A stretch of 64,000 nucleotides of DNA, taken from the NCBI GenBank assembly GCA_016401345.1, contig JAEACG010000002.1:682001-746000 (forward strand), read 5' to 3'. Positions 17,160 to 17,482 of the stretch are shown here, piece after piece. The notes beneath the pieces are model-generated. The model saw only the letters and a list, made by a program, of their open reading frames with translations, was not told the DNA's origin and searched no databases. The position numbers were made by a program, and so were the translations under genes. The stretch is from Fictibacillus nanhaiensis (lineage in GTDB: Bacteria; Bacillota; Bacilli; Bacillales; Fictibacillaceae). The first letter of the stretch is position 1, and each line of letters opens with the position of its first letter.

Positions 17160-17188
17160 TTGACAATGAGAATCATCCTTAATAAAAT
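17160..17188 (+). promoter_or_regulatory. Consensus promoter reading antisense into fer
   Basis: TTGACA (17160-17165), exactly 17 bp, then TAAAAT (17183-17188). The spacer carries a Fur-box-like sequence. The direction is rightward, into the 3' end of the minus-strand ferredoxin gene and onward towards ypbB. Confidence 0.55.
17161..17175. promoter_or_regulatory. Putative Fur box
   Basis: TGACAATGAGAATCA matches 11 of 14 defined positions of the Bacillus 7-1-7 Fur consensus (TGATAATnATTATCA) and overlaps the -35 and spacer of the plus-strand promoter. Confidence 0.45.
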
Positions 17189-17189
17189 A

Positions 17190-17217
17190 AATAAAAACCC
17201 TCTAATGAAAGAGGGTT
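17190..17217 (-). terminator. Intrinsic terminator of fer
   Basis: On the minus strand AACCCTCT and AGAGGGTT form the stem, followed by TTTTATTTATTTT. Confidence 0.85.
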
Positions 17218-17233
17218 CCTGGTAAGATTACAA

Positions 17234-17482
17234 CTATTCGAATTTTAATGCATCACCATCGAATGACTCTTCAGATACTTTGATGGAATCTGTAGGACAG
17301 CCTTCGAACGCATCTTGCATATCTTCTAACAATACATCTGGAATTTCAACGATTCCTTGGTTATCGTCTAGAGTTACAAACGCAATTCCTTCGTCGTCAT
17401 AATCGTAAATGTCTGGTGCTGCAGCTCCGCATGCTCCACATGCGATACAAGTTTCTTTGTCAACAATCGTATACTTTGGCAT
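17234..17482 (-). CDS. fer: Ferredoxin [4Fe-4S]
   Basis: This is a low-potential electron carrier of 82 residues, the same length as B. subtilis Fer. A single [4Fe-4S] cluster is bound by Cys12, Cys15, Cys18 and Cys62 (CIACGAC and GCPTDS); the second cluster of clostridial ferredoxins is absent. The protein is strongly acidic. AGGAGGT lies 7 nt before the ATG on the minus strand. ypbB is divergent, as in B. subtilis. A plus-strand promoter with a Fur-like site could make antisense RNA across this gene. Confidence 0.95.

Follow-up and report, generated by a model that had tools for sequence, protein, structure and literature searches.

Just beyond its stop codon, the ferredoxin gene fer of Fictibacillus nanhaiensis is faced by a putative sigma-A promoter overlaid by a Fur box. 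Comparison between genomes strongly supports a promoter of Fur type that is oriented against fer. We think it reasonably probable, judging from the sequence, that convergent transcription from this promoter, derepressed by Fur, lowers fer expression at low iron.

Organization of the locus

The window, i.e., the whole stretch of 64,000 nucleotides that was analysed, carries serA (minus strand), the site (17158-17188), fer (minus strand) and then ypbB-recS (plus strand), in that order. The only NCBIfam match of the fer product, to 4Fe-4S ferredoxin, is below the cut-off. The gene names are our assumptions: fer was named by an earlier reader from motif and context, ypbB and recS partly follow that reader, and serA is our own assignment. 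The features of the locus are as follows.

15467..17041, minus strand: serA, behind the putative antisense promoter and not its proposed target (ORF list and neighbour survey)
17160..17188, plus strand: promoter TTGACA-17-TAAAAT, facing fer (promoter scan; hexamers kept in the own genus)
17161..17181, plus strand: Fur box TGACAATGAGAATCATCCTTA, a 21-bp double motif over the -35 and the spacer (17/21 to consensus)
17220-17193, minus strand: intrinsic terminator of fer (sole terminator-like site in the region)
17196..17553, plus strand: predicted antisense RNA covering all of fer (from promoter geometry)
17234-17482, minus strand: fer, coding for an 82-aa ferredoxin, proposed antisense target (ORF list; sub-cut-off NCBIfam match)
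17560..17588, minus strand: fer promoter TTGAAA-17-TACAAT (promoter scan; kept in the genus alignment)
17671..17679, plus strand: likely extended -10 of ypbB itself, TGA TAAGAT (read from the sequence; kept in the genus)
17710-18780 (from 17788 in the ORF list), plus strand: ypbB, next gene in the antisense direction
18749-20257, plus strand: recS, after ypbB in the antisense direction

Three other elements were seen around these genes. The stretch TTTTTAAGATAGCGGTTTCA (17123-17142), upstream of the serA promoter, is conserved in the genus. At the conserved position of the ypbB start (17707-17712) the window has ATT ATA and no ATG, GTG or TTG; the start is ATG in some sister genomes, e.g., at L016, and the next in-frame ATG in the window is at 17788. 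Inside the 5′ end of fer, the plus strand carries TTGTCA-17-CATAAT with a TG (17457-17485), possibly a second antisense promoter or a promoter of ypbB, whose -10 varies in the genus.

A promoter and Fur box facing fer

The original prediction of a near-consensus promoter was confirmed by the promoter scan: on the plus strand, the -35 TTGACA (17160-17165) and the -10 TAAAAT (17183-17188) are 17 bp apart and score 11/12, the best of seven promoter-like sites between 15300 and 18800, a region for which shuffled sequences give 10.4 such sites. Two sites in the 64 kb, this one included, differ from TTGACA-N17-TATAAT at no more than one position, against an expected 0.76, and at least two arose in 16 of 100 shuffles. 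The promoter is aimed, as predicted, at the 3′ end of fer on the minus strand, its -10 ending 45 bp beyond the stop codon.

The proposed Fur likeness of the -35 and spacer was upheld only in part by the window. Although TGACAATGAGAATCA does agree with TGATAATNATTATCA at 11 of 14 positions, ten such matches occur in the window and 8.35 are expected, which is chance level; an 18-mer form of the Fur motif gave one match against 0.56 expected, which is not significant. A 21-bp double motif (17161-17181) describes the box better than a 14-mer does, with 17 of 21 positions matching a consensus in which two positions are free. As the statistics of box and promoter within the window are not significant, the case rests on comparison between genomes, which is convincing.

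Conservation of the site

Sixty relatives were surveyed, 59 of which have fer: 18 of the own genus, 16 others of the family and 25 others of the order. The own genus denotes here the group g1 of 18 genomes; some species named Fictibacillus belong to other groups of the family, g2 and g4. In the alignment of 17 own-genus genomes, 31 of the 34 columns of 17158-17191 are invariant, both promoter hexamers included, against 9 of 38 and 4 of 42 columns in the flanks, and this difference makes the site convincing. Conservation in relatives had been named beforehand as a test that could refute the prediction, and the site passed it. Between 17483 and 17700, 78 of 218 columns are invariant.

Counted as beside fer when antisense and within 160 bp of the fer stop codon, the site is present in 17 of the 18 own-genus genomes and 10 of the 16 others of the family (27/34), and in none of the 25 other genomes of the order. 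Among 80 named loci, a set overlapping with the 59 survey loci, 11 carry the site, the sole carrier outside the family being Bacillus taeanensis (L090). Neither the sense strand nor the reversed pattern gave any hit over these 59 and 80 loci (overlapping sets). A spacing of 17 bp gives the best or equal-best -10 score in 25 of the 27 boxed family genomes, with five ties. The -10 is poor (TAAGCT) in boxed G019 and G031 (L024, L163), which counts against the antisense reading. The Fur box overlaps a sigma-A promoter, as in Fur-regulated promoters, and is conserved, with the site lost in six of the 34 family genomes.

Association of the site with fer or with its neighbours

Might the box act without a promoter, either serving serA from upstream or, behind the fer terminator, forming a protein roadblock or an insulator? 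In the window, 118 bp separate the site from the serA start, serA is the direct neighbour of the site in 20 of the 27 boxed family genomes, and G012 keeps the site intact beside serA. On the other hand, conservation extends beyond the box to the -10 and its spacing, serA is not the direct neighbour in the other 7 of the 27, and G021, G025 and G027 have serA without the site, so that we hold such a role to be very unlikely.

Genomes with another neighbouring gene tie the site to fer. With serA about 1 kb off in boxed G022, G029 and G032, and with a neighbour that converges on fer in G017, G019, G020 and G031, the site is nevertheless kept; in the latter four it lies between both 3′ ends and faces fer, making fer the sole gene next to the promoter exit. 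By our reading, these convergent ORFs are transporter-like (G017), metalloprotease-like (G019 and G031) and kinase-like (G020). In B. taeanensis, a gene that we read as pyrophosphatase-like separates the site from serA. Counting against the association, six family genomes have fer without the site (G021, G024, G025, G026, G027 and G033), and G024, G026 and G033 lack it yet share the convergent metalloprotease-like gene of boxed G019 and G031.

In G012, the site beside serA is at a contig end and fer is near another contig end. The fer terminator hairpin is found near both (L203:5673-5851 and L191:12939-13095), as if an insertion had split fer from the promoter. Because both contig ends carry the hairpin, this genome does not decide whether site and fer are naturally separated.

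Fur sites and the same composite elsewhere

The window genome encodes a Fur of the Bacillus type (NF051892, over the NCBIfam cut-off). A Fur-type 17-mer with at most two mismatches has 28 matches in the genome and one in the reversed control; it was written to admit the G of the fer site and is therefore biased towards it, and some matches count the same position on both strands. Two matches are exact, among them the fer site. Other sites adjoin a siderophore-type diaminobutyrate transaminase and FeoB, both over the cut-off, as well as genes read as parts of iron ABC transporters (below the cut-off), and some are intragenic. One box (L132:1501-1517; G000 C1:976315) lies just upstream of a gene for a thioredoxin-reductase-like flavoprotein, below the NCBIfam cut-off, which we assume may be a ferredoxin-NADP reductase.

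Across the order, 397 genomes were searched for the composite of promoter and Fur box; 81 have it, including 14 from the own family, and the reversed control gave two hits. Outside the family there are 77 composite sites, of which 76 were processed by script and that of G053 by eye; as L245 has no ORF, 75 downstream ORFs were compared with Pfam. These comprise Peripla_BP_2 (18), solute-binding (10), flavodoxin (6), pyridoxal decarboxylase (4), FTR1 (4), FhuF (4), class-III aminotransferase (3), ABM (2), FecCD (1), NEAT (1) and FeoA (1) families. Assuming that the groups do not overlap, about 54 of the 75 belong to iron-uptake, siderophore or flavodoxin families, with the iron role taken from the family names; the remainder have no such hit or are unrelated (L263, inside a PNPase-like gene). 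Only one of the 76, L285, faces fer, and it is from B. taeanensis, as is L090. Within the family, five composite sites are away from fer (G009, G023, G026, G028 and G033). Of the four read by eye (all but that of G009), three precede lipoprotein- or uptake-like ORFs, and that of G026 is inside a PNPase-like ORF, which counts against the composite always being the promoter of an iron gene. Overall, the composite appears to mark Fur promoters well, and its position before iron genes elsewhere in the order fits the iron link proposed for the fer site.

Control by PerR, making the antisense transcript responsive to peroxide, was weighed against control by Fur. The genome encodes a PerR-like protein that scores below its cut-off, and a similar box is found upstream of genes read as coding for a peroxiredoxin and a Dps-like protein. 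TGA...TCA ends are of the Fur type by the position-6 rule. The box at fer has such ends, and in other genomes of the order iron-uptake genes follow the composite; PerR control is accordingly very improbable.

Predicted antisense transcript

Going by promoter geometry, antisense transcription would start at about 17195-17196 and its path would cross all of fer, the arrangement of a cis-antisense RNA, with an opposite-strand promoter reading across its target. The fer terminator, the only terminator-like site of the region, indeed has no T-run in the plus direction, as had been pointed out. The further claim, that transcription should continue across fer, agrees with most loci: 24 of the 28 boxed loci have no predicted antisense terminator ahead of the fer start codon, and the window genome (L011) has none, either near the start or past fer. 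Against it, such terminators are predicted in L028, L029, L031 and L035, that of L031 (G020) being strong (T7) and the other three weaker.

If transcription went further, the site could be a distal, Fur-controlled promoter of ypbB-recS with a long leader crossing fer, raising expression of the operon at low iron. This alternative had been offered in the original prediction, and each of the 34 family genomes, like B. taeanensis, indeed has ypbB upstream of fer, reading away from it. It is less likely than the antisense reading because ypbB has a conserved extended -10 of its own (TGA-TAAGAT, 17671-17679), for which no -35 was recognised. The antisense start is also about 515 bp from ypbB, seven own-genus loci (L009, L010, L012-L015 and L022) have weak predicted terminators near the ypbB start, between about +489 and +537, and we know of no link between the operon and iron. 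We regard the distal promoter as unlikely.

A transcript ending early is the other possibility, i.e., a short trans-acting Fur-regulated RNA, analogous to FsrA or IsrR, that starts in a C-rich hairpin and stops before fer or within it. At its extreme 5′ end the antisense RNA would carry the fer terminator read on the plus strand, predicted to be a hairpin with a CCCUCU stem-loop; the fold of 17196-17260 has a z score of -1.90, and 9 of 200 shuffles fold as well. The G020 terminator would yield an RNA of about 40 nt. FsrA (RF02273) was detected in none of the 60 genomes with stricter filters, which may miss diverged homologues, and the B. subtilis control was positive; FsrA homologues are described as widespread in Bacilli (PMC12871923). 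Opposed to this, no stretch measured is less conserved than the one that follows the start, with 4 of 42 columns invariant, and the hairpin sequence varies between genera. In the window genome, the site thus lacks the short conserved RNA with its own nearby terminator that characterizes an FsrA-like sRNA, and we consider this explanation improbable.

The first 15 fer codons (17438-17482) show raised synonymous conservation throughout the family, whether the antisense promoter is present or absent. Synonymous constraint was rejected as a trace of antisense function, as the conservation is also seen in unboxed family members (permutation p 0.047). These tests included 20 loci chosen from the 67 unboxed ones outside the family, and the permutation test also 19 of the 25 fer loci of other families.

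Proposed mechanism

We infer from the promoter, its Fur box, their orientation and conservation and the association with fer that the site acts as a Fur-repressed sigma-A promoter for convergent, antisense transcription of fer. In the presence of iron, Fe-Fur would bind over the -35 and spacer, and fer would be expressed. In its absence Fur would leave, and the polymerase would start near 17195, read back through the fer terminator, which has no T-run in that direction, and then proceed across all of fer. The terminator would become the 5′ hairpin of the antisense RNA, and the fer mRNA would be lowered by polymerase collision, by cleavage of the RNA duplex, or by both, with less iron put into ferredoxin as the presumed iron-sparing outcome.

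Replacement of ferredoxin by flavodoxin does not seem open to the own genus. No flavodoxin exceeds the cut-off in any of its 18 genomes, which counts against the antisense reading; G001 and G007 alone show a partial match, weak and below the cut-off. The purpose there is therefore likely to be plain reduction of ferredoxin and not a swap. Elsewhere in the family, G019, G029, G031 and G033 have a flavodoxin over the cut-off, the first three being boxed.

Discussion

We take S596 and IsrR of S. aureus to be one RNA. Like this RNA, FsrA of B. subtilis and RyhB, the fer antisense RNA would be an iron-repressed RNA that lowers an iron-using protein at low iron; the known RNAs, as the cited excerpts describe them, act in trans on many mRNAs, whereas the fer antisense would act in cis on one gene (PMC12871923, PMC4818034). 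Cis-antisense RNAs take part in the iron-starvation response of Synechocystis, with the pairs IsrR/isiA and As1_flv4/flv4, and As1_flv4 builds up over time during iron deprivation. In contrast to the situation proposed here, IsrR drops on deprivation and guards isiA, and the relevant passages describe no Fur box for these antisense promoters (PMC3516471). RNA-alpha of V. anguillarum, directed against fatA/fatB, is likewise a Fur-dependent antisense RNA on iron genes, but in the extract available it represses uptake genes in iron-rich cells, and its synthesis needs Fur instead of being repressed by it (PMC5524678). Antisense promoters also occur at an iron-sulfur locus, the Rhodobacter isc-suf locus with P4 and P5; these are described there as stimulating the sense promoter, and P5 is repressed by OxyR, not Fur (PMC6956336). 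The excerpted literature thus contains small RNAs under Fur control and, for other genes, antisense RNAs related to iron (PMC6956336, PMC12871923, PMC3516471, PMC4818034, PMC5524678, PMC6311696). In line with the original prediction, the portions of the open-licence literature searched show no precedent for a Fur-repressed promoter that yields antisense RNA to a ferredoxin gene.

If the proposed mechanism is true, it would give Fur, normally a repressor, a simple cis route to keep an iron-using gene on by holding back an opposing promoter. Being single, deeply conserved and easily mutated, the site would allow a test of whether bacterial antisense transcription is functional or noise. It also suggests how bacilli in which FsrA is not detectable may spare iron. 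Tentatively, and with doubts that outweigh our confidence, we propose that the whole family may have given up the trans-acting FsrA, at least for ferredoxin, in favour of a dedicated antisense promoter that Fur represses. It would sit at the fer terminator, which in reverse would serve as a stabilising 5′ hairpin, and Fur would keep an iron-sulfur gene on in cis.
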